Assembly (NCBI GenBank): GCA_021414085.1
Contig: JAIOPC010000014.1
Location: 124,001 to 188,000, forward strand
Length of the DNA: 64,000 bases
From: Actinomycetes bacterium
GTDB lineage: Bacteria; Actinomycetota; Acidimicrobiia; Acidimicrobiales; Ilumatobacteraceae
Direction: 5' to 3'
Position numbers and translations under genes: made by a program. Under the pieces are notes generated by a model that did not search any database, was not told the origin of the DNA, and saw only the letters and a list, made by a program, of their open reading frames with translations. Positions within the stretch are counted from its first letter, which is position 1, and every line of letters starts with the position of its first letter. Shown here piece by piece: positions 5,731 to 28,459 of this stretch.

Positions 5731-5746
5731 TTAGAGTACACTCAAT
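5731..5746 (+). promoter_or_regulatory. Regulon site 1: near-palindromic operator over the -10 of the substrate-binding protein
   Basis: TTAGAGTACACTCAAT. The inner 10 bases GAGT-AC-ACTC form perfect arms. The hexamer TACACT (5737-5742) can serve as the -10, putting transcription start near 5749, just ahead of the GGGGGAG ribosome site. Four similar sites occur at 10415, 13790, 22972 and 28444. A repressor bound here would block the polymerase. No protein has been matched to the motif. Confidence 0.6.
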
Positions 5747-5768: not shown

Positions 5769-7067
5769 ATGCGCAAGTTCAAAGCAGTTGGGCTCGTTGC
5801 AATCGCTGCGCTCATCGCGGTGGCGTGCTCGGACGACAAGTCCACCACCGACACGACGACCGCGGTAGACGGCACCGACGGCACCGACACCACCGTCGCC
5901 GGCGGCGAGGTGCAGGTCATCAAGATTGGTTACGCATTCCCCGACCTTGCGGCCTTCGCCGTGCTCAACAAGTCGTTCGCGATCGGCGACCCGCAACTGC
6001 AGGCCGAAGCAGTGATCGATAGCTGGCGCCGCGATGGCCTTCTGCCCGAAGGCATCGACATCGAGTTGGTCGCCGCTCCGTACAACATCGTCGAGCCGGC
6101 AGCAAAGCTTGGGGTGTGCACTTCGCTCGCCCAGGACGAGCAAGTGTTTGCAGTGGTGGCCGGCATCAGCTTCACCGAGGGTGCCGAGTGTCTGGCGACT
6201 CGCTACCAGACTCCCATCATCGACACCGACGGCGCCGAGCCGACGGTCTACTCGCGCGGCGCGCCGTGGTTCTTCACGTTGCGCCCCGATCACGTCAGGC
6301 AGTTCGTGAACTACGGCTACTGGGCGATCGATTCGGGCGAGCTGGATGGCAAGCGCGTGGGTATGTACTTCGAGACCAAGATCATCGAAGGCGTGGAAGC
6401 AATGCGCGCCTTGTTCGAAGAGCAGGGCGTCAACTTGGTGTCAGTCACGGAGACATCCGGGATTGGCATTGGCGGGGCCGAAGATCCGTTGTCGATCGAG
6501 CGCTTCATCGCGGACGATGTCGAGGTCGCGCTTCCCCTCGTCGGTGGCTCCAGCGCAGCCAACATGTACGGCTTCGCTAAGGGCCAGGACTACCGCCCGG
6601 TGTGGCTCGACATGGACTACTCCGAGCACACCACCGATGTCGCGGCGAAGACCAACCCGCCCGAGCAGTACGACGGCACGCTGGCGATGACGGTGACACG
6701 AGTCGGCGAACGCGCCAGCGGAATCCAGAACCCTGGTGCCGAAGCATGCCTGGCGAACTACGAGCGCTACGCGGCGGTGGAGATTGAGCGCGAAGGAATC
6801 GAGACCGGCGAATACAGCAGCATTCTGCGCACGTGCGACTTGTTTGCGGTTCTGTTGGCTGGGCTGACGGGCGCCGCCGACGACCTCACGAAAGAGAACT
6901 TCGTCACGGCGCTAGAGAACGCCGGCACGATCGAGCTAGTCGGCAGCGGCAACGGCTCGTTCGATGCGTTCGATCACTCGTTCATTGATGAGTACCGCAC
7001 TGTTCAATGGGATGCGGATTGCCCGTGCTGGAAGGCCATCTCTGACTTCGCCCCGATGCGGACGTAA
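5769..7067 (+). CDS. ABC transporter substrate-binding lipoprotein (Peripla_BP_6 / branched-chain amino acid type)
   Basis: 432 aa from ATG 5769 with a strong GAAGGGGGAG site at 5755-5764. The signal peptide MRKFKAVGLVAIAALIAVAC ends at a lipobox cysteine, followed by an acidic/threonine-rich linker, so it is a membrane-tethered extracellular binding protein. The body has the two-lobed type I periplasmic-binding fold (KIGYAFPDLAAFAVLNKSF; later VAGISFTEGAECL and HVRQFVNYGYW). It should feed the LivHMG fusion. A paralogue of similar length and order lies at 27097-28425, and both have the same operator type. Despite the family name, the catabolic neighbourhood suggests a ligand other than an amino acid. 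Confidence 0.9.
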   Translation: MRKFKAVGLVAIAALIAVACSDDKSTTDTTTAVDGTDGTDTTVAGGEVQVIKIGYAFPDLAAFAVLNKSFAIGDPQLQAEAVIDSWRRDGLLPEGIDIELVAAPYNIVEPAAKLGVCTSLAQDEQVFAVVAGISFTEGAECLATRYQTPIIDTDGAEPTVYSRGAPWFFTLRPDHVRQFVNYGYWAIDSGELDGKRVGMYFETKIIEGVEAMRALFEEQGVNLVSVTETSGIGIGGAEDPLSIERFIADDVEVALPLVGGSSAANMYGFAKGQDYRPVWLDMDYSEHTTDVAAKTNPPEQYDGTLAMTVTRVGERASGIQNPGAEACLANYERYAAVEIEREGIETGEYSSILRTCDLFAVLLAGLTGAADDLTKENFVTALENAGTIELVGSGNGSFDAFDHSFIDEYRTVQWDADCPCWKAISDFAPMRT

Positions 7068-9607: not shown

Positions 9608-10419
9608 CTGAGGGTCCGGTGACTGCTTGGGTTCGCTTTCAACACGGCGACGGGATCGCGTTTGGTTCAGTTGTCGACGGAGCGATCAGTGTTCACAGCG
9701 GCGACATGTTCGCTGATCCGCAGCCGACCGGCGAGACGGTGCCGCTTGATCAGGTCGAGCTGCTCACGCCGACGCAGCCGAGCAAGATGATCGGCTTGTA
9801 CAACAACTTCGCTGCCGCGGCCGCGAAGAACGAGTGGGCACATCCAACCGAGGCACTGTGGTTCATCAAGCCGACGTCGTGCTTTCTTCGGCCCGGCGGC
9901 GTCATCGAACCGCCCAAGTCGTACGACGGTCGCGTTTTCTTCGAAGGCGAGCTGGGCATCGTCATTGGGGTCGAGGCAACCAATGTCGCTCTCGACGACG
10001 TTGATCGATTCATCTTTGGCTACACGTGCGTCAACGATGTCACTGCGTTCGGATTGCTGACATCCGATTCGTCGTTCGCGCAGTGGAGTCGAGCGAAGAG
10101 CCTCAACACGTTCGGGCCGTTCGGTCCGGTCGTCGCTACTGGCGTCGACCCCTCGGCGTTCACCGTCCGAACGGTGGTCGACGGGCGCGAGCGTCAGAAC
10201 TACCCGGTGAGCGACATGATCTTCAGCCCCGCCGAACTCGTCCATCGCATCTCGCAGGACATGACGCTGTACCCGGGCGACATCATCGCCTGTGGCACAT
10301 CAACGGGCGCAATGCCGATGCGGCTGGGCAACGTCGTTGAGGTTTCCATCGACGGAATCGGAACGCTGTCCAATACCTACGGTGCGCGCCCTGCCGTGGA
10401 GCCAACGACCGCAAATTAA
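9601..10419 (+). CDS. Fumarylacetoacetate hydrolase (FAH) family protein
   Basis: 272 aa from ATG 9601, or 266 aa from GTG 9619, which has GAGGG a few bases upstream and begins MTAWVRFQHGDG like typical family members. The core FFEGELGIVIG carries the E-x-E metal ligands. YTCVNDVTAFGLL and YPGDIIACGTSTGAM complete the signature. The family includes 2-oxohept-3-enedioate hydratases, acylpyruvases, oxaloacetate decarboxylases and fumarylpyruvate hydrolases. Here it probably cleaves a C-C bond or decarboxylates a diketo acid in ring breakdown. The stop codon lies inside regulon site 2, so this operon ends where the next promoter begins. Confidence 0.88.
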   Translation: MVTEGPVTAWVRFQHGDGIAFGSVVDGAISVHSGDMFADPQPTGETVPLDQVELLTPTQPSKMIGLYNNFAAAAAKNEWAHPTEALWFIKPTSCFLRPGGVIEPPKSYDGRVFFEGELGIVIGVEATNVALDDVDRFIFGYTCVNDVTAFGLLTSDSSFAQWSRAKSLNTFGPFGPVVATGVDPSAFTVRTVVDGRERQNYPVSDMIFSPAELVHRISQDMTLYPGDIIACGTSTGAMPMRLGNVVEVSIDGIGTLSNTYGARPAVEPTTAN

Positions 10420-10430
10420 GTATACTCAAT
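10415..10430 (+). promoter_or_regulatory. Regulon site 2: near-perfect palindrome over the -10 of the LLM oxidoreductase
   Basis: ATTAAGTATACTCAAT, 14 of 16 positions symmetric. TATACT (10421-10426) is an excellent -10, giving a short leader before CGGGAGG. The site contains the TAA stop of the preceding FAH gene. It is the cleanest copy of the family besides the site at 28444. Confidence 0.7.
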
Positions 10431-10449
10431 CCCTTTCGGGAGGATGATC

Positions 10450-13789: not shown

Positions 13790-13805
13790 ATTTAGTGTAC
13801 TGAAC
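13790..13805 (+). promoter_or_regulatory. Regulon site 3 upstream of the acyl-CoA dehydrogenase pair
   Basis: ATTTAGTGTACTGAAC, 10 of 16 positions symmetric, with AGT-GT-ACT as core. TGTACT (13796-13801) would be a weaker -10. The ribosome site AAGGGCAGG and ATG 13826 follow at normal distance. Similar to the other four sites in sequence and in position relative to the gene. Confidence 0.55.
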
Positions 13806-13825: not shown

Positions 13826-14968
13826 ATGGAGTTCGGCTGGGACGACGAGCACTCGGGGTATCGCACCGAGCTGGTGTCGTTTCTGAACGAAGAGCTGCCC
13901 GATCATTGGCACGGCGAGACGGCGATTCTCGGTTCAGAGGCCAATACCAAGTACTCGCGCCGATTTGCGGGGCTGCTCGCGGAGCGCGGTTGGCTGACTC
14001 CGCACTGGCCGGTCGACTTTGGCGGTTTCGATGCTTCGCCCTGGATGCTGGCTGTGCTGGGTGAAGAGCTGTGGTCGCGCGGCGAGCCACGCGGGCCGCA
14101 GTACATGAACGCCAACTGGATCGGGCCGTCGATTATGGCCAACGGAACTCCGGAACAACAGGCGCGGTATCTGCCGCCGATCTCGCGCGGCGACGTGATC
14201 TGGTGCCAAGGTTTCTCCGAGCCCGATGCGGGCACCGACCTGGCGTCGCTGCGCACGCGCGCGGAACGCGATGGCGATGTGTACATCGTCAACGGTACGA
14301 AGATCTGGACGTCGTACGGCGATGTTGCCGAGCACTGCTACCTGCTCGTGCGCACAAACCCCGACGCCGAATCACATCGCGGCATCACCGTTCTGTTGGT
14401 CGACATGCCAACACCGGGGTTGCAGGTCTCGACGATTCCGGGTGTGGTTGGGGATCACTCGTTCAACGAGTTGATCTTCACCGACGTGCGCATTCCGGTC
14501 GCCAACCGTCTCGGTGACGAGAACGAGGGCTGGACCGTCGTGCGCGAAGCGTTGTCGTACGAGCGCGTCGGATCGCCGCGCTGGGCGCGTGCCGCGTTCA
14601 TGCTGAACGAGACGATTGAGGTCGCCACTGCCGATGGCCGCACGATCGATCCGATCGCGATCGAAGCAATCGGTATTGCGAAGGCGGCTTGTGAGGCAGC
14701 CCGCGTGCTGAGTTATCGCGTGATCGATGAACGAGCGCGCAACATTCCTCCTTCTCCGAACGGCAACCTGGCACGCGTCGCGATGGTGCAAGCGGAACGC
14801 CTGGTCGCGGAAGCATGTCTTGCGATCGACGCCGGGCACACGCTCACCTACCGCTCGCCATCGAACTATCAATTCCGTAAGTCGCTTGCCGCCGGCGTTG
14901 CTGCTGGGGCATATGAGGTTCAGCTGAACCTCATCTCGCGTCTCCACCTCGGACTTCCCAAAGGCTGA
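13826..14968 (+). CDS. Acyl-CoA dehydrogenase, large partner of a two-gene pair
   Basis: 380 aa. FAD/substrate signatures: WCQGFSEPDAGTDLASL, IVNGTKIWTSYGDVAEHC, and C-terminal EVQLNLISRLHLGLPKG. The short-chain-type catalytic glutamate position, four residues before EVQ, is alanine, as in many isovaleryl-type and heteromeric enzymes that place the base elsewhere. The next gene is a shorter acyl-CoA dehydrogenase beginning 2 bp downstream. This large/small arrangement matches the alpha2beta2 dehydrogenases of actinobacterial steroid side-chain degradation (ChsE1-E2 type), so a bulky cyclic acyl-CoA is a reasonable guess. Confidence 0.9.
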   Translation: MEFGWDDEHSGYRTELVSFLNEELPDHWHGETAILGSEANTKYSRRFAGLLAERGWLTPHWPVDFGGFDASPWMLAVLGEELWSRGEPRGPQYMNANWIGPSIMANGTPEQQARYLPPISRGDVIWCQGFSEPDAGTDLASLRTRAERDGDVYIVNGTKIWTSYGDVAEHCYLLVRTNPDAESHRGITVLLVDMPTPGLQVSTIPGVVGDHSFNELIFTDVRIPVANRLGDENEGWTVVREALSYERVGSPRWARAAFMLNETIEVATADGRTIDPIAIEAIGIAKAACEAARVLSYRVIDERARNIPPSPNGNLARVAMVQAERLVAEACLAIDAGHTLTYRSPSNYQFRKSLAAGVAAGAYEVQLNLISRLHLGLPKG

Positions 14969-19366: not shown

Positions 19367-19917
19367 TGAACGACCGGCGCCTGGAAGAGTCGTGGTGGTT
19401 GCTCTCGCGGAGTCGCGGCGTGGGCGTGGTGCTGCGGGTTCTCATCTTGGTGAGTCCGGTGGCAGCGATCGCGTGTACGCGACTTGCGGCCGATCACTCG
19501 CTGCTCGCTATCAACGTCGCAATCATCCCCTTGGCTTTCGTGTGCGTCGTGTATCCGGACAGCCACATCGGGTTGCTCGTCGTGCTCCTCGTCGGGATCG
19601 AGTGGCTGGTCACGGTTGACGACCAAGCGACGCCGTGGTCGATTGGTGTGGCGATTTCACTCACCGTCTTTCACGCATCGGTCGCCGCGGCGACTGTCGC
19701 GCCGCCGGCGGCGCGGTGGACGCGGGCGATGTGCTGGCGCTGGTCGCGTCGATCACTGGTGGTGATGGGTGCCAGCGCGTGCACGTGGGCGGCGGTGGCG
19801 GCAATCGATCGTTATGCGGTGGGCAGTAGCGCCGTACTCGTCGTGGTGTCGCTCGCGACGATCGCGGTGGCCGCGATGTGGGCTCGCGACGGCAGCGTGG
19901 GCGTCAGCCAGCAATAA
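19366..19917 (+). CDS. Integral membrane protein closing the MoxR/DUF58 operon
   Basis: 183 aa from GTG 19366, the G of the upstream TAG stop. At least four, probably five, hydrophobic helices (about 23-42, 47-66, 68-80, 91-108, 130-175) occupy most of the chain. No recognised domain. The position after DUF58 suggests a membrane component of the same complex. Its 3' end overlaps the 3' end of the convergent MBL gene by 14 bp, so no terminator can separate them. Confidence 0.75.
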   Translation: MNDRRLEESWWLLSRSRGVGVVLRVLILVSPVAAIACTRLAADHSLLAINVAIIPLAFVCVVYPDSHIGLLVVLLVGIEWLVTVDDQATPWSIGVAISLTVFHASVAAATVAPPAARWTRAMCWRWSRRSLVVMGASACTWAAVAAIDRYAVGSSAVLVVVSLATIAVAAMWARDGSVGVSQQ

Positions 19918-20647
19918 AGCGGTCGCCCGATGCGAGTGTGACCACTTCCATCTTGCCCAGGTCGAGCGCGGCAAGGTCTGCTGCACTCGAGGTAATGGTG
20001 ACGAGCCCTTCGTACGGCATGTGGCCATCGTGAATCGGAATCAGTCGCGCCGCACCGAGTGCCTGTGCGACTGTCGCCATCTCGGCCGCCGTCGTTACGA
20101 GCTGTCGACCCTTGAACAACACGCCGTTCACTGGGCCGATCGCACAGTCGAACGGCGTTGACGTTTGCGCGTAGTTCGTCACGGCCGCGACGTTCAGCAC
20201 TTCGCCGCCGAAGAAGACTCGCGCGTGCGATCCGTTGATCGCGTAGTTGTTGGTGCCCATCCCGTCGGCCGCAACGTGCTCGGGCACGACCTCAAGCTCG
20301 ACCGTGTCGGTCAATCGTCGGCGTTGGCCCCACGCCAATGTTTCGACGTGTCGGAAGCCAGCTGCGCGGGCGCTTTGCGCCATGCTCTCGTCGGCGACAT
20401 AGACGGCCGTCGTGTCGCGGTGCGGATAGTCCGCGAGCAGATCGATCTCCCAGTGATCCTGCGCCCAGTGGCTGCCAATGATGGCGGTGAGCGCAGGCAC
20501 GTCGTCGGGGCTGAGCGCGGCGATGTCGGAGATGCCGCGGCTGCGGCCGAAGAATGGGTCGGTGAGCACCAACGCATCATCGACCTGAATGAGCACGCTC
20601 GCGTTGCCGAGATTCGTAACTGCCCATCCGGATTCTGTTGCTGACAT
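19904..20647 (-). CDS. Metallo-beta-lactamase-fold hydrolase, second UlaG-like paralogue with atypical metal motif
   Basis: 247 aa from ATG 20647, preceded by AGAGGT and a TATAGA-like -10. Clearly homologous to the protein at 4158: VLTDPFFGRS, IIGSHWAQDHWE, NNYAINGSHARVFFGGEV, IGPVNGVLFKGRQL, IPIHDGH. The metal motif is H60-W-A-Q-D64-H65, again lacking the second histidine. Third gene of the minus-strand set 22972-19904 with the CoA ligase and thioesterase (10 bp from the latter), so it probably acts on a CoA-pathway intermediate or lactone. Confidence 0.85.
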   Translation of the reverse strand: MSATESGWAVTNLGNASVLIQVDDALVLTDPFFGRSRGISDIAALSPDDVPALTAIIGSHWAQDHWEIDLLADYPHRDTTAVYVADESMAQSARAAGFRHVETLAWGQRRRLTDTVELEVVPEHVAADGMGTNNYAINGSHARVFFGGEVLNVAAVTNYAQTSTPFDCAIGPVNGVLFKGRQLVTTAAEMATVAQALGAARLIPIHDGHMPYEGLVTITSSAADLAALDLGKMEVVTLASGDRFIAG

Positions 20648-20657
20648 ACCTCTATAC

Positions 20658-21437
20658 CTATCTGCTAATTGCCCGAGCAACGCCGATCACGAAGACCGCC
20701 AATACCGAGCCTGTTGTGTCGTCGTGCAGCACCACTTCAATGTCGCTCTCGCCGGGTGCCGCGAGCCAGCGCGCCTCCGTGGCGACCGGGTCGTTGCCGA
20801 CCGGCGCCAAGTAGTCGACATTGAGCGATTCGACGACGGCCGGGGCCTGCAGGGTGTGTTCGGCGAAGGCCAGCGCGCTCGCCTCGCCAAGCAGTGTGAC
20901 GAAGGCTCCCTGCACGATCCCACCTTCGCGGCGCACGTCGTCGCCAGCATGCAGTGTCACGCGTCCAGTTGCTGCGTCGGCGACTTCGATCCCGGCGGCC
21001 TCGGAAAGCGGCGCCTCGATCGGTTGTGTCCACGCGCTGCGGTACTTGCTGTAGACGTCGCGGGAATATGGCGTGTCTGCGCGGCGCACGACGAATGAGA
21101 TCAGCCCGGTTGCAATGCTTCCACCTTCGCCGTTGCAAAAGTCGATGCGATCGACAGCCCGTCTGCCGTCGGCGAACAGCGGTGCCGCAACGGCGGTGAC
21201 GGGGCCGACATAGCCACGGGCGGCGCGTCGGAACGAGAACGAGGTCGTCAGCACCGTCGTCACGTAGGCATCGTGCAATCGAATTCCGGAAGCAAGGTCG
21301 GCGGCGAGCATCATCCCCGCAACCAACATCTCGCCGTTGCGTACAACCGCAGGAGAAAGCGGAAGCGTCGCCGTGTCGTCGCGGGTCGGGTGCAGGCGCA
21401 CGCCGATTCGATCGACCAACTCGCCCACGCCGGTCAT
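20658..21437 (-). CDS. Double hot-dog thioesterase-like protein
   Basis: 259 aa. Two hot-dog halves are recognisable. The N-terminal half has MLVAGMMLAADLASG and SFRRAARGYVGPVTAVAAPL. The C-terminal half has REGGIVQGAFVTLLGEASAL and ESLNVDYLAPVGNDPVATEA, the PaaI/4HBT-type sequence with a G-x-x-x-x-L-G-E/D helix. It probably hydrolyses an acyl-CoA. The start overlaps the CoA ligase stop by 4 bp, so ligation and thioester hydrolysis are co-produced, perhaps to recycle CoA from dead-end thioesters. Confidence 0.8.
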   Translation of the reverse strand: MTGVGELVDRIGVRLHPTRDDTATLPLSPAVVRNGEMLVAGMMLAADLASGIRLHDAYVTTVLTTSFSFRRAARGYVGPVTAVAAPLFADGRRAVDRIDFCNGEGGSIATGLISFVVRRADTPYSRDVYSKYRSAWTQPIEAPLSEAAGIEVADAATGRVTLHAGDDVRREGGIVQGAFVTLLGEASALAFAEHTLQAPAVVESLNVDYLAPVGNDPVATEARWLAAPGESDIEVVLHDDTTGSVLAVFVIGVARAISR

Positions 21438-22972
21438 CGCGCGTCGTTCCAGTACTTGTCTTTGAGCGGTTGCTTGTTCAGCTTGCCGGTCGCCATGCGC
21501 GGCAGTGTCTCGACGAACTCCATGGTGCGCGGCACTTTGAAGCCAGCGATGCGGTCGCGGGCGAACTGGGTGAGTTCATTCCGGAGTTCGTCGGTGCCGG
21601 CCACGCCGGTGGTTACCTCGATCGCGGCGTGTACCGACTCGCCCATGTCGGCGTCGGGGATCCCGAACACCGCAACGTCGGCGACGCTCGGGTGCGTGAC
21701 GAGGCAGTCCTCGATCTCTCGCGGATAGATGTTGACGCCCCCGCTGATGATCATGAAGGCGCGCCGGTCGGTGAGGTACAGGTAACCGTCGTCATCGACG
21801 TAGCCGACGTCGCCGATCGTCGACCACTCGGCGTTGAGTGGGTTCCGGGTGTCGCGCGTGCGGTCACTATCACGGTGGTACTCGAATGGCGCCGTCGGTG
21901 GTTTGAAGTAGATGAGGCCGGACTCGCCGTTCGGAAGTTCAGAGCCGTCGTCGTCGCAAATGTGCAGCTCTCCGAACAACGGCTTGCCCACCGACCCCGG
22001 GCGTTCCAGCCACTCCTCGCTCGAGATCAGCGTTGCTCCGTTGCTTTCGGTGCCGGCGTAGTACTCCCAGATGATGGGTCCCCACCAGGCAATCATCTGT
22101 CGCTTCACCTCCGGCGGGCACGGCGCAGCCGCGTGGATTGCGAACTTGTGCGCGGAGAAGTCGAAGCCCGTTCGGTCGGCCTCCGGCAGTTTCAACATGC
22201 GGATGAACATCGTTGGCACCCACTGGCTGTGCGTGATCGCGTGAGTCTCCAATGCGCGCAGCGCTTCGTTCGCGTCGAAGTTCTCCATAATCACGGTGGT
22301 GCCGCCGACGGACTGAACAGCTGCGGTCCAAGCCAACGGCGCCGCGTGATACAGCGGTGCGGGGGAGAGGTAGCGGGTCTGCGAGTCCATGCGGTACACG
22401 TTGACGAAGATGTCGATGCTGTTGCTCAACGTGGGATCGTTGATCTGTTTGCCAGAGAGCGCTCGGCGGATTCCCTTTGGCCGACCGGTTGTCCCCGACG
22501 AATAACACATCAGCGCACCACGCGGTTGCTCGGCGAGCGGTTCTTCTGGCTCGGCCGCGAGAGCAGCTTCGTAACTCTCGAAGCCGGCAGCACCATCGCC
22601 AACGATCAGTCGGTGCTTGCATTCCGAATTGTCGGCAACCGAGGCTGCCGCGACCTCGCCAAGTTGTGCGCTCGCCACGATCGCTTTCGCGCCGCAGTCC
22701 TGAACGATGTAGGCAACCTCGGCGGCGGTGAGATGGCGATTGATCGGCGTCAGGTAGAGGCCGGATCGAATCGCAGCCCAGTACACCTCGTGATACCAGG
22801 CCGTGTTTTCGCTCAGCAGCGCGACGCCGTCGCCCGTCACCAGTCCGGCACGTCGCCACGCACGTGCGACCTGCACCGATCGCCGCTCCAGCTCGCCGTA
22901 GGTCACTCGCTGGCCGGAACCAGCCATGATCAGCGCCGTTGCAGCGGAATCGTGCGCGCCGGGAAACACCAT
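21434..22972 (-). CDS. AMP-forming acyl-CoA ligase / fatty-acid--CoA ligase family
   Basis: 512 aa from ATG 22972. The longer open frame upstream is antisense of the SDR gene. Motifs: MCYSSGTTGRPKGI, YYAGTESNG, IGDVGYVDDDGYLYLTDR, SGGVNIYPREIEDCL, and C-terminal lysine RMATGKLNKQ. The N-terminal MVFPGAHDSAATALIMAGSG fits the family, supporting this start although it lacks a ribosome site. It activates a carboxylic acid to acyl-CoA. Only 13 bp separate its ATG from the divergent SDR ATG, and those bases are most of regulon site 4. Confidence 0.9.
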   Translation of the reverse strand: MVFPGAHDSAATALIMAGSGQRVTYGELERRSVQVARAWRRAGLVTGDGVALLSENTAWYHEVYWAAIRSGLYLTPINRHLTAAEVAYIVQDCGAKAIVASAQLGEVAAASVADNSECKHRLIVGDGAAGFESYEAALAAEPEEPLAEQPRGALMCYSSGTTGRPKGIRRALSGKQINDPTLSNSIDIFVNVYRMDSQTRYLSPAPLYHAAPLAWTAAVQSVGGTTVIMENFDANEALRALETHAITHSQWVPTMFIRMLKLPEADRTGFDFSAHKFAIHAAAPCPPEVKRQMIAWWGPIIWEYYAGTESNGATLISSEEWLERPGSVGKPLFGELHICDDDGSELPNGESGLIYFKPPTAPFEYHRDSDRTRDTRNPLNAEWSTIGDVGYVDDDGYLYLTDRRAFMIISGGVNIYPREIEDCLVTHPSVADVAVFGIPDADMGESVHAAIEVTTGVAGTDELRNELTQFARDRIAGFKVPRTMEFVETLPRMATGKLNKQPLKDKYWNDAR

Positions 22973-22987
22973 TAAAGTGTACTGAAT
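22972..22987 (+). promoter_or_regulatory. Regulon site 4 filling a 13 bp divergent promoter
   Basis: TTAAAGTGTACTGAAT with core AGT-GT-ACT. It overlaps the last base of the CoA ligase ATG (22972) on one side and the first two bases of the SDR ATG (22986) on the other. For the SDR, TAAAGT (22973-22978) with a 7-base gap fits a leaderless start at 22986. For the ligase, TACACT (22981-22976 on the minus strand) leaves only three bases, shorter than normal. One bound repressor would cover both starts. Confidence 0.6.
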
Positions 22988-23894
22988 GGCATCTGAGCTG
23001 GCGGGTCGTGAACTGGACGGTCGAGTAGTCATCATCACTGGCGCAGGGCGTGGCCTCGGGCGCGAGCACGCGTTGTTGATGGCTTCGGAAGGTGCGCGTG
23101 TCGTCGTCAACGATCTTGGCGGTGACTCCATCGGGTCGGGCAACGACTTAACCCCGGCACAAGAGACCGTTGCGGAGATTCGCGCCGCGGGTGGAACTGC
23201 GATCGTCAACGGCGACGACGTGGCCGATTGGGAGGGTGCCAAGCGGTTGGTGTCGGCGGCGATCAACGAGTTCGGTGATCTGCACGTGTTGGTCAACAAC
23301 GCTGGAATTCTGCGCGACCGAATGTTGGCCAACATGAGCGAGGAAGAGTTCGATTCGGTCGTGCGGGTTCACCTGCGCGGTCACTTCTGCCCGACTCGTC
23401 ACGCGGCGGAATTCTGGCGTGATCAATCGAAGGCTGGCATCACCGTCGATCGTTCGCTCATCAACACGTCGTCGACGTCTGGTTTGTTGGGCAACGTTGG
23501 TCAGGGAAACTACGGCTCGGCGAAGGCAGGCATCGCCTCGATGACGATCATTGCCAACATCGAGATGCGCAAGTACGGAGTGCGTGCGAACGCGATCGCG
23601 CCTGCGGCGAGAACGCGACTCACCGGTGGAATCGCATCGACGCCTGTTGCCGACGCGTTCGATGCCGGCGACCCGGCGAACGTTTCGCCGATGGTCGCCT
23701 ACCTCGCCGCGGCCGATTGCCCGCTGAATGGCCAGGTGTACTTCGTGCACGGTGGTCGCATCCAGCTGATGCAACCGTGGTCAATGAGCCACCAGATCAA
23801 AGCCGACAAGCGCTGGACAATCGCCGAACTCCGAGGCGCGACAGAGAAGTTCGCGGAAACCAAGTTCCCAACGATTGAAGCGCTCAGTCAATAG
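22986..23894 (+). CDS. Short-chain dehydrogenase/reductase (3-hydroxyacyl-CoA dehydrogenase-like)
   Basis: 302 aa. Rossmann motif TGAGRGLGREHA (TGxxxGxG), NNAG, active serine in NTSSTSG and catalytic Y176-x-x-x-K180. The HALLMASEGARVVVNDLGGD beginning and the C-terminal part match the dehydrogenase domain of peroxisomal-type multifunctional enzyme 2 (HSD17B4-like), which oxidises 3-hydroxyacyl-CoA. No ribosome site precedes ATG 22986, so it is probably leaderless. Divergent from, and probably co-regulated with, the CoA ligase. Confidence 0.9.
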   Translation: MASELAGRELDGRVVIITGAGRGLGREHALLMASEGARVVVNDLGGDSIGSGNDLTPAQETVAEIRAAGGTAIVNGDDVADWEGAKRLVSAAINEFGDLHVLVNNAGILRDRMLANMSEEEFDSVVRVHLRGHFCPTRHAAEFWRDQSKAGITVDRSLINTSSTSGLLGNVGQGNYGSAKAGIASMTIIANIEMRKYGVRANAIAPAARTRLTGGIASTPVADAFDAGDPANVSPMVAYLAAADCPLNGQVYFVHGGRIQLMQPWSMSHQIKADKRWTIAELRGATEKFAETKFPTIEALSQ

Positions 23895-24009: not shown

Positions 24010-24384
24010 TCAGATCGGTCGAAGTGGAAGTCGTCGAACTCGCACGCGATCGGCATCGAGAACAACAACGGCCCCCGTTTCAAGATCGGCCGAGACTGCT
24101 TCCAAGTTGGCGACGAGAAGTGCGACCACCTCGGCAGCCCGACGTTGCCCTTGACGACGAAGAAGCACGACCGACGGAGATGCCGCGTTCGTACTCGCGA
24201 GCAAATCCCCGAAGTCCGTATCGCCTGACACGACAACTCTGTTGTCATCTCGAGCGGCTGCCAATATCACGGCATCCGAGGACCGCCCGACGCCGACATC
24301 GCGCACATGGACCGCATCGTGCCCAAGTCGAGCGAGTAGTTCGACCATCGCCGGCGATTGATTCTCGTCGAGGAGAATCCTCAC
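24010..24384 (-). CDS. DUF5615 PIN-like toxin of a type II toxin-antitoxin pair
   Basis: 124 aa. MRILLDENQSPAM (D6, E7) and VVSGDTDFGDLL (D55, D57, D60) are the acidic metal-binding positions of the DUF5615/Mut7-C PIN-like nuclease family. GHDAVHVRDVGVGRSSDA is also typical. It probably cuts RNA when free and is neutralised by the DUF433 protein encoded immediately upstream with a 4 bp overlap. The intact acidic residues argue that it is functional. Confidence 0.88.
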   Translation of the reverse strand: MRILLDENQSPAMVELLARLGHDAVHVRDVGVGRSSDAVILAAARDDNRVVVSGDTDFGDLLASTNAASPSVVLLRRQGQRRAAEVVALLVANLEAVSADLETGAVVVLDADRVRVRRLPLRPI

Positions 24385-24611
24385 GCAGGCTGCCGCAGGG
24401 GAAGTTCACGCTCCTGGACCGCTAGCGCCGCGAACCTTAGGCACTCGGCGATGTCGTCAATTTCAAGGTCGGGATGCTCAGCGACGATCTCGGCATTGGT
24501 CATCCCGTCGGCAACCATCGCCACAACGGACGCCACCGGAAAACGAAGGTCGCGCACGCACGGCACCCCGCCCATTCGTTCCGAGTCGACAGTGATGCGC
24601 GTAAACGTCAC
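24381..24611 (-). CDS. DUF433 antitoxin
   Basis: 76 aa from GTG 24611; the open frame begins at TTG 24635, but GTG 24611 has TACTCT six bases upstream, fitting a leaderless start. RITVDSERMGGVPCVRDLRF, VASVVAMVADGMTNAEIVAE and HPDLEIDDIAECLRFAA are the DUF433 helix-turn-helix signatures. Such proteins bind the partner DUF5615 toxin and the shared promoter. Overlaps the toxin start by 4 bp. Confidence 0.88.
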   Translation of the reverse strand: MTFTRITVDSERMGGVPCVRDLRFPVASVVAMVADGMTNAEIVAEHPDLEIDDIAECLRFAALAVQERELPLRQPA

Positions 24612-24623
24612 GTCCAAAGAGTA
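24612..24623 (-). promoter_or_regulatory. Leaderless-type promoter of the DUF433/DUF5615 pair
   Basis: On the minus strand TACTCT (24623-24618), six bases, then GTG 24611. No Shine-Dalgarno sequence at a usable distance. Confidence 0.45.
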
Positions 24624-24779: not shown

Positions 24780-26228
24780 GTGCCCGACTCCAGAACCTCT
24801 TACGACGTGTTTCAGGTCTTCACGCCGACAACGCAGGCGAAGATCAACTTCGTCGAGCGTCACTCGTTGAATGAAAGAGTCGTTGACGCTCTCCGAACTC
24901 CGGGAAAACAAGTCGTGATTTACGGGGAAACCGGGTCAGGCAAGTCGACACTTCTGTCCAACAAACTTGATCAGCTGTACGAAGCCCAGATAACGACGCG
25001 GTGTCAGAACCTGATGACCTTTGAGCAGCTCATCATCGACGCATTTGACCAACTCGCCCCCTTCTACGTGGAAGGCGGGAGTTTTGCTACTGAGGCTTCG
25101 ACCAGGTCGACTCTCGGGGCCGATTTTCGGGCCATCAGAGCACAAGTAGAAGTCGGCAAGTCCGTAAAGAGTGGATCAGATCTAAAACGAGTGCTCCCGC
25201 CGCAACTCACTCCTCAGCGGCTCGGGCAGTTCCTTGGAGAGCGCAAGATCTGTTGGGTGCTCGAGGATTTTCACAAGGTGGCCAAAGCCGAGAAGACAGC
25301 GTTGTCGCAATCGCTCAAAGTCTTCTGCGATCTGGCGCAGGCCTATCCGCAAGTCAAGATTGTCGCCCTTGGTGCAACAGATTCCGCACGCGAAGTGGTC
25401 GAATACGACCCTGAGATGGCGAATCGAGTTGCGGAGATCCACGTTCCACTCATGACCGACGTCGAGATCTTTGAAATCCTTTCTGGTGGTGAACAACTTC
25501 TCAACATCGACTTCGGGACGCTGAAGGATCTCATAGTTACCTACTCAGTCGGTGTCGCCGCGATTTGTCACCAACTCGCACTCAACATGTGCACGACTAG
25601 GGGCGTGAACGAGACGTCTGAAGACAAGATTGTGTTCGACGCAAGCGACCTCCAGGCAGCGCTGAAGAAATACATTGACGATCAATCCGACACGCTCAAG
25701 TCGCGGTTCGACAAAGCACTCCGACGAATGCGGGTGAAGAAATATGACAACTGTCAGATCATCCTCAGAGTGATGGCAACTGGCGACCCCGACGGGATGT
25801 TACATAGCGAGATTCTGGCCGAGGTCCGGAAGGTACACCCCAAATATCCGCCGTCAAATCTCACGACCTACCTTCGAGCGCTACAGAGCGAGGATCGAGG
25901 CGCTGTCCTCAAGTCTTCGAACGCTGGTCGTTACAGCTTCACTGACCCGTACCACTACCTGTTCTGCCACCTTCTACTGACGGACGTCTCAGGAAAGAAG
26001 GGTCTTTCGGAAGATGCACTGGCTGACGCGCTCTTCAAGGAGACGCTCGACAAGATGGTTCTGACATTTTCGTCGACGAATGAGATTTTCTTCAGTCGGC
26101 CGATCGTCCCTAATCTCAACAAGCAGCTCAGCTTGTCTTCATTCTGGCGTTTTAGTCGGGACGGAGCCGAACTAACGCTTGACCTCGGCGAAGCCGAAGA
26201 TACAAAAGCTGGACCCAGCGAAACCTAG
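24780..26228 (+). CDS. Lone AAA/STAND-type P-loop ATPase with C-terminal winged-helix-like region
   Basis: 482 aa. Walker A GETGSGKST at residues 49-57, Walker B CWVLEDFHK near 158-166, then a sensor-like strand (VKIVALGATDSAREVVEY). The arrangement resembles ORC/Cdc6-like AAA proteins and the NTPase core of defence proteins. Residues about 300-400 (DSLKSRF-type helices; NCQIILRVMATGDPDGML; SEILAEVRKVHPKYPPSNL; AGRYSFTDPYHYLF) look like a winged helix. No effector domain is evident, so it may act on DNA/RNA or recruit another protein. Base composition looks lower in GC than its neighbours, and it sits between two island repeats, suggesting acquisition. Possible defence role is inference. Confidence 0.75.
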   Translation: MPDSRTSYDVFQVFTPTTQAKINFVERHSLNERVVDALRTPGKQVVIYGETGSGKSTLLSNKLDQLYEAQITTRCQNLMTFEQLIIDAFDQLAPFYVEGGSFATEASTRSTLGADFRAIRAQVEVGKSVKSGSDLKRVLPPQLTPQRLGQFLGERKICWVLEDFHKVAKAEKTALSQSLKVFCDLAQAYPQVKIVALGATDSAREVVEYDPEMANRVAEIHVPLMTDVEIFEILSGGEQLLNIDFGTLKDLIVTYSVGVAAICHQLALNMCTTRGVNETSEDKIVFDASDLQAALKKYIDDQSDTLKSRFDKALRRMRVKKYDNCQIILRVMATGDPDGMLHSEILAEVRKVHPKYPPSNLTTYLRALQSEDRGAVLKSSNAGRYSFTDPYHYLFCHLLLTDVSGKKGLSEDALADALFKETLDKMVLTFSSTNEIFFSRPIVPNLNKQLSLSSFWRFSRDGAELTLDLGEAEDTKAGPSET

Positions 26229-28443: not shown

Positions 28444-28459
28444 ATTCAGTATGCTGAAT
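28444..28459 (+). promoter_or_regulatory. Regulon site 5: best palindrome, between substrate-binding protein and dioxygenase
   Basis: ATTCAGTATGCTGAAT, arms ATTCAG/CTGAAT perfect, 14 of 16 positions symmetric. TATGCT (28450-28455) could be the -10 for the plus-strand dioxygenase, with AGCATACT-type reading for the minus strand. It lies 18 bp from the GTG start at 28425 and 42 bp from ATG 28502, so one protein could control both. Confidence 0.7.

Follow-up and report, generated by a model that had tools for sequence, protein, structure and literature searches.

Predicted overlapping leaderless promoters and shared GntR-type operator between divergent acyl-CoA ligase and SDR genes

The gap between the divergent genes for an acyl-CoA ligase and an SDR oxidoreductase is best read as a pair of overlapping leaderless promoters, both under one GntR-type operator, and this reading is considered reasonably probable. 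The gap is located in the analyzed window, that is, the whole stretch of 64,000 nucleotides at C17:124,001-188,000. The minus-strand ligase ATG is at positions 22972-22970, and the plus-strand SDR ATG is at positions 22986-22988. These opposed ATGs and the 13 bp separating them (22973-22985) had been described in an earlier note on this DNA and were borne out by direct reading of the sequence. A 16-bp element at 22972-22987 (TTAAAGTGTACTGAAT) forms a palindrome across the gap and contacts both ATGs. Its core, TAAAGTGTACTGAA (22973-22986), is a predicted site for a GntR/FCD-type repressor. Two putative -10 boxes were found inside this element. The first one, TAAAGT, is located on the plus strand (22973-22978), 7 nt before the SDR ATG. 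The second one, TACACT, is located on the minus strand (22981-22976), 3 nt before the ATG at 22972 and 6 nt before a GTG at 22969.

The SDR gene (22986-23894, plus strand) encodes a 302-aa oxidoreductase resembling (3R)-hydroxyacyl-CoA dehydrogenases, matched by PRK07791 over the cut-off. Its best match among solved structures is 2et6, a (3R)-hydroxyacyl-CoA dehydrogenase. The ligase gene (21434-22969, minus strand) encodes an AMP-binding acyl-CoA ligase of 511 aa, counted from the proposed GTG, with FadD4 as the best NCBIfam match, below the cut-off. The ligase stop is overlapped by a hotdog thioesterase-like gene (20658-21437, minus strand), followed by a metallo-beta-lactamase-fold gene (19904-20680, minus strand). 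The frames of these three genes overlap in series, and the latter two are probably the second and third genes of the ligase operon. Just past the SDR gene, the minus strand carries a DUF5615 (PIN-like) gene at 24010-24384 and a DUF433 gene at 24381-24617, with a 4-bp overlap; such pairs we take to be toxin-antitoxin-like. Additionally, the plus strand carries an AAA ATPase gene at 24780-26228, whose weak match to TniB falls short of the curated cut-off.

Promoter signals and conservation of the divergent pair

The spacing of -10-like sequences was surveyed in a 400-kb sample, an eighth of the 3.2-Mb genome, chosen partly around operator matches. Because the gene caller was home-made, gene starts are approximate in the surveys of leader and follower genes, divergent pairs, operator neighbors, and SD sequences. 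A TANNNT at spacers of 6-8 nt was found in 31 of the 161 leader genes, the SDR gene itself included, vs. 3.6 expected from positions further upstream in leader genes. Spacers of 6, 7, and 8 nt were found in 11, 11, and 9 leader genes, respectively. The same signal was found in 15 of the 163 follower genes. SD-like words were found in 24 leader genes (n = 161) and 24 follower genes (n = 163). This strong leaderless signature suggests that leaderless starts are common in this genome.

Both predicted starts of the divergent pair carry the same signal. The arrangements TAAAGT-N7-ATG for the SDR gene and TACACT-N6-GTG (22969) for the ligase gene have spacings inside the leaderless peak of the genome, and neither start has any other TANNNT within 200 nt upstream. 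The suggestion of the earlier note that TAAAGT-N7-ATG suits a leaderless SDR message agrees with both of these properties. Each hexamer shares four of its six bases with TATAAT, and a scan of 22800-23150 for two-hexamer sigma-70 promoters found none. Both starts have a -10 box 6-8 nt ahead and no clear SD sequence, with SD pairing of -0.5 and +0.7 kcal/mol vs. a median of -2.9 kcal/mol for 330 genes. The SDR start is well pinned, because an in-frame TGA immediately precedes the ATG and most SDR homologues align from about residue 10. GTG starts were found in 13 of the 46 leaderless-like genes of the sample. In mycobacteria, GTG or ATG suffices for leaderless initiation, as stated in an excerpt of PMC6448022.

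The divergent arrangement was searched for in homologous loci. The divergent ligase-SDR pair was found in none of the 29 loci of SDR homologues and none of the 29 loci of ligase homologues, both sets being the best-scoring of longer lists and taken with 1.5-kb flanks, some of which end at contig ends; in one locus (L023) the two genes are convergent. Among the matches listed for named genomes, covering 80 SDR loci, neither the divergent pair nor an operator near the SDR start was found, and a leaderless-like box was found in six loci. The eight best named SDR homologue records are MAGs, three of them labelled Acidimicrobiia and the others Actinobacteria, Actinomycetota, or Actinomycetes; by these labels, the organism is presumably an actinobacterium of similar kind. 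As no examined locus showed the divergent pair, the comparison supports the parts only and not the two-way arrangement.

In total, 69 divergent pairs were found in the genome sample. In three of them both genes have leaderless-like boxes, within 40 nt; of these three, only the ligase-SDR pair is closer than 25 nt. Another divergent pair with a leaderless-like box for each gene is located at C17:88893-88927. Its starts are separated by 34 nt, and an operator-like site was found at C17:88908 (18.5 bits).

The lack of the pair in the examined homologue loci fits an alternative in which only one promoter, on either side, is real and the operator acts one way, the other gene being expressed from elsewhere or hardly at all. 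The same alternative draws on G027, a genome from another genus of the family, where the operator and TATACT-N7-ATG, with leaderless spacing, precede the SDR match without a divergent ligase, and where the register of the -10 box within the operator differs from that of the SDR gene analyzed here. No operator was found immediately upstream of the best ligase match in G027. Against the single promoter stand the one correctly spaced TANNNT found on each side, with no other box within 200 nt to replace it, and the independent support for both start codons; this alternative is therefore considered unlikely, and two overlapping promoters are preferred.

Start codon of the ligase gene

The true start of the ligase gene is probably the GTG at 22969 and not the ATG at 22972. 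In 20 of the 29 ligase homologues, a start codon is located one codon downstream of the equivalent of ATG 22972, as an ATG or GTG directly before a conserved Y/H-P (19 homologues by script and L091 by eye). The remaining homologues either start one codon further out (2 of 29) or are without the N-terminal motif (7 of 29), and in some homologues additional start codons are present in frame upstream. Two homologues, L077 and L078 (54% identical), have ATC in place of ATG 22972, followed by GTG. Additionally, the ligase gene read from ATG 22972 is the sole case among the 161 leader genes with a TANNNT at spacers of 3-5 nt. On the basis of the homologue N-termini and the -10 spacing, ATG 22972 was set aside as the ligase start, and a correction of the start codon is suggested.

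Should ATG 22972 be right, the ligase message would be leadered or would start at this codon, from a promoter inside the SDR gene or from TACACT at its 3-nt spacing. Indeed, the codon is present in frame, the SDR gene could physically accommodate a longer leader, and several homologues have, by eye, SD-like purine runs before the start. These runs indicate that leaderless expression of the ligase is not conserved. The exceptional spacer, the weak SD pairing, the absence of another TANNNT within 200 nt, and the homologues that start one codon later, together with the two ATC codons, all speak against this start, and it is judged quite improbable.

The GTG start also bears on the other proposals of the earlier note. 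It had held both messages to be leaderless for want of room for ribosome sites, and for the ligase it had offered either an unusually close -10 box, at three bases, or a downstream start. The want of room proves nothing, because a leader could sit inside the neighboring gene, although such a leader is without support on either side, given the single TANNNT in the 200 nt before each start. Leaderless messages are favored instead by the spacings and the weak SD pairing. The downstream start agrees with the homologue starts, which point to GTG 22969 and a normal 6-nt spacer. The unusually close box has no counterpart among the leader genes; the simplest explanation of the 3-nt spacing is that it was counted from the wrong ATG. 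Thus, the prediction of two leaderless messages, the ligase one from the downstream start, is supported. Since the ligase start is probably GTG 22969, the gap becomes 16 bp and the operator stops 2 nt short of the ligase start. The operator had been placed over both start codons; it does touch both ATGs, but with GTG 22969 only the SDR codon is overlapped.

Operator motif, regulon, and candidate regulator

On sequence grounds, the palindrome is a predicted operator (ATTNAGTRTACTNAAT) of a regulon with a candidate regulator. The consensus pattern TTNAGTRTACTNAA, drawn from three window sites including the ligase-SDR one, was found with at most one mismatch in 12 distinct places of the genome. 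Eight of these places belong to one 64-kb stretch (C17:88,223-152,458), and five of the 12 are inside the window. The strand matches numbered 9 + 10, vs. 1 + 0 for the reversed pattern used as control. No enrichment was found in the genome at up to two mismatches (19 + 28 vs. 15 + 27 for the reversed pattern), and a shorter form, AAGTGTACTGA, gave 5 matches in the window at up to two mismatches vs. 5.3 expected. Because the consensus was drawn partly from the ligase-SDR site, this site was retested with a matrix from 10 other sites. With this matrix, it scored 20.1 bits, the 14th best score in 400,000 bases. A score of at least 14.0 bits was reached by 21 places, 10 of which are the training sites, and the next place scored 10.6 bits; 19 of these 21 places are outside called genes. 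The matrix consensus, TTNA-GT-RT-AC-TNAA, has conserved outer TTNA/TNAA arms and the form of FadR-subfamily operators, an AT-rich palindrome with GT and AC 2 nt apart. According to an excerpt of PMC4494728, GT and AC are usually 3 nt apart in operators of this subfamily, and 2 nt apart in some groups.

Besides the ligase-SDR site, operator sites were found in the window at 5732-5745, upstream of a plus-strand gene starting at 5769; at 10416-10429, upstream of a plus-strand gene starting at 10444; at 13791-13804, upstream of a plus-strand gene starting at 13826 and acyl-CoA dehydrogenase-like by eye; and at 28445-28458, between a Peripla_BP_6 substrate-binding gene (minus strand) and a TauD-type dioxygenase gene (plus strand). 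The genes adjacent to operator sites encode, by Pfam, an amidohydrolase, MFS/ABC transport, and a TauD-type dioxygenase, as well as a substrate-binding protein and, by eye, acyl-CoA dehydrogenases. Judged by these annotations, the operator-bearing genes look like a catabolic regulon. An identical copy of the 14-mer TAAAGTGTACTGAA was found on another contig (C9:29450-29463), upstream of an HTH_31/HTH_3 gene; 39 bp away there is another, weaker copy (14.2 bits). Two genes with an operator at or near the start, at C13:262775 and C17:88223, have similar N-termini (IIDSDTHVGPN and IIDTDTHVGPN, respectively). The C17 gene belongs to Amidohydro_2, and the C13 gene is leaderless-like (TACACT-N6-ATG).

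Among 60 other genomes, 15 had a match with at most one mismatch. The count exceeded the control in G009, G014, G027, G035, G136, and G139, and was no higher than the control in the other 9. The palindrome might also be a promoter motif of the genome, a symmetric -10 box and not a repressor site, or the site of a different regulator, and its consensus does contain TATACT or TACACT, -10-like on one or both strands, but a general motif should spread over the genome and its relatives, and the gathering of most places in one stretch, the few genomes with matches, the conserved outer arms, and the enrichment near GntR homologues described below leave little probability for this reading.

The regulator of the preferred GntR-type operator is likely the protein encoded at C17:78,685-79,371, a link that we infer from the following comparisons. 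This protein has GntR and FCD domains (FadR type). Its gene marks the left edge of the region that carries the operators and lies roughly 45 kb to the left of the window. Homologues of this GntR protein (E up to 1e-25) were found in 16 of the 397 genomes searched, the own genome included. The motif was searched for in their loci with a matrix from 13 training sites, the ligase-SDR site included. In 29 GntR-homologue loci (99 kb), 10 matches above 11 bits were found in 8 loci; as some loci overlap, these matches correspond to 8 distinct places. The 58 control loci (232 kb) gave two matches, both in the regulon-carrying G027. The GntR set consists of L138-L166 only, with L167-L172 left out because they had been fetched after the pattern had matched their contigs.

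The same matrix was used for G027. Its GntR protein is 51% identical over residues 1-194 and is encoded at a contig edge. For eight genes with an upstream operator here, the SDR gene included, an operator was also found upstream of the best G027 match; the matches are one-way best tblastn hits, and the spacings and the count of eight were taken by eye. The G027 match of the window gene at 10444 has TACACT-N6-ATG. With the SDR match described above, it suggests that the design of an operator with a leaderless -10 box recurs in G027. A regulon with 12 near-consensus sites would then be common to a second genus, with a candidate regulator in hand. Upstream of the GntR gene itself only a weak site (8.5 bits) was found, and autoregulation is therefore doubtful. 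A TetR protein encoded near the GntR gene (C17:76,427-77,044) was rejected as the regulator, having no match at E 1e-10 in G027, G009, G014, or G207. A 56% relative of this TetR protein was found in G024 and a 34% relative in G003.

Proposed mechanism and known systems

In the proposed mechanism, TAAAGT would start plus-strand transcription at the SDR ATG (22986) or right beside it, and TACACT would start minus-strand transcription at GTG 22969, the first codon of the ligase. With 3 bp common to the two boxes (22976-22978) and a predicted 17 nt between the starts, RNA polymerase would occupy the site in only one direction at once. The palindrome would lie over the two -10 boxes and reach the first bases of the SDR ATG. 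A dimer of a FadR-subfamily GntR/FCD protein, most likely the product of C17:78,685-79,371, would occlude both promoters together. Repression is presumed here in preference to activation; binding of the putative ligand, a pathway metabolite, would free the DNA, and the ligase operon and the SDR gene would be co-induced. Control of two operons would thus be squeezed into about 16 bp, a compact and testable case. If the predicted starts hold, repressor binding, polymerase competition, and leaderless translation could be studied on one short DNA.

A further proposal, advanced only tentatively, is that the 16-bp element does four jobs, as two opposed -10 boxes, the GntR/FCD operator, and the edge of a start codon. 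The repressor consensus TTNAGTATACTNAA contains TATACT on both strands. If the palindrome of the repressor and the symmetry of the -10 box are the same sequence, many regulon sites would be ready-made repressible bidirectional promoters. Such sites could explain divergent leaderless pairs, which would form when a new gene lands beside a site.

The ligase-SDR site is most likely a more compact form of the bidirectional promoters and GntR divergons already known, with familiar ingredients in an unusually tight packing. In the literature searched, AGTATACT with GntR gave only CcpA and saxitoxin-cluster subjects, by title, and no paper was found for the combination of leaderless, divergent, and overlapping promoters with an operator and GntR. 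Bidirectional promoters are described, in an excerpt of PMC10268837, as divergent starts 7-25 bp apart. The commonest distance is 18 bp, where positions -7 and -11 coincide; small variations and other distances occur (excerpts of PMC12825309 and PMC10268837). The overlap of -10 boxes that marks these promoters was found here at 22976-22978, common to both boxes. Compared with the commonest geometry, the predicted distance is 17 nt and the boxes are offset.

At the Escherichia coli promoter PacrA/acrR, the TetR-family protein AcrR represses both RNAs, according to an excerpt of PMC12825309. By analogy, joint repression is expected at the ligase-SDR site, which resembles promoters of this type, as far as the excerpt describes them, in predicted opposed starts about 18 bp apart and overlapping -10 boxes. 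Unlike at PacrA/acrR, the messages are predicted to be leaderless, with a 3-bp overlap of the -10 boxes and a predicted distance of 17 nt, and the candidate repressor, a GntR/FCD-type protein, would bind right on the -10 boxes. FadR-subfamily divergons, in the excerpt of PMC4494728, have one palindrome near the middle of the intergenic region, usually regulating both operons, and several groups share the GT-N2-AC core found here. Unlike in these divergons, the ligase-SDR intergenic region has about the length of the operator, which leaves the site on top of the two predicted promoters and in contact with a start codon. Finally, leaderless genes of mycobacteria have an ANNNT/TANNNT -10 box close before the start (excerpt of PMC6448022). 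The ligase-SDR pair, presumably from another actinobacterial group, is like them in the TANNNT close before both starts and in the use of GTG or ATG. It differs from them in that two predicted starts of this kind are served in opposite directions by a single site.
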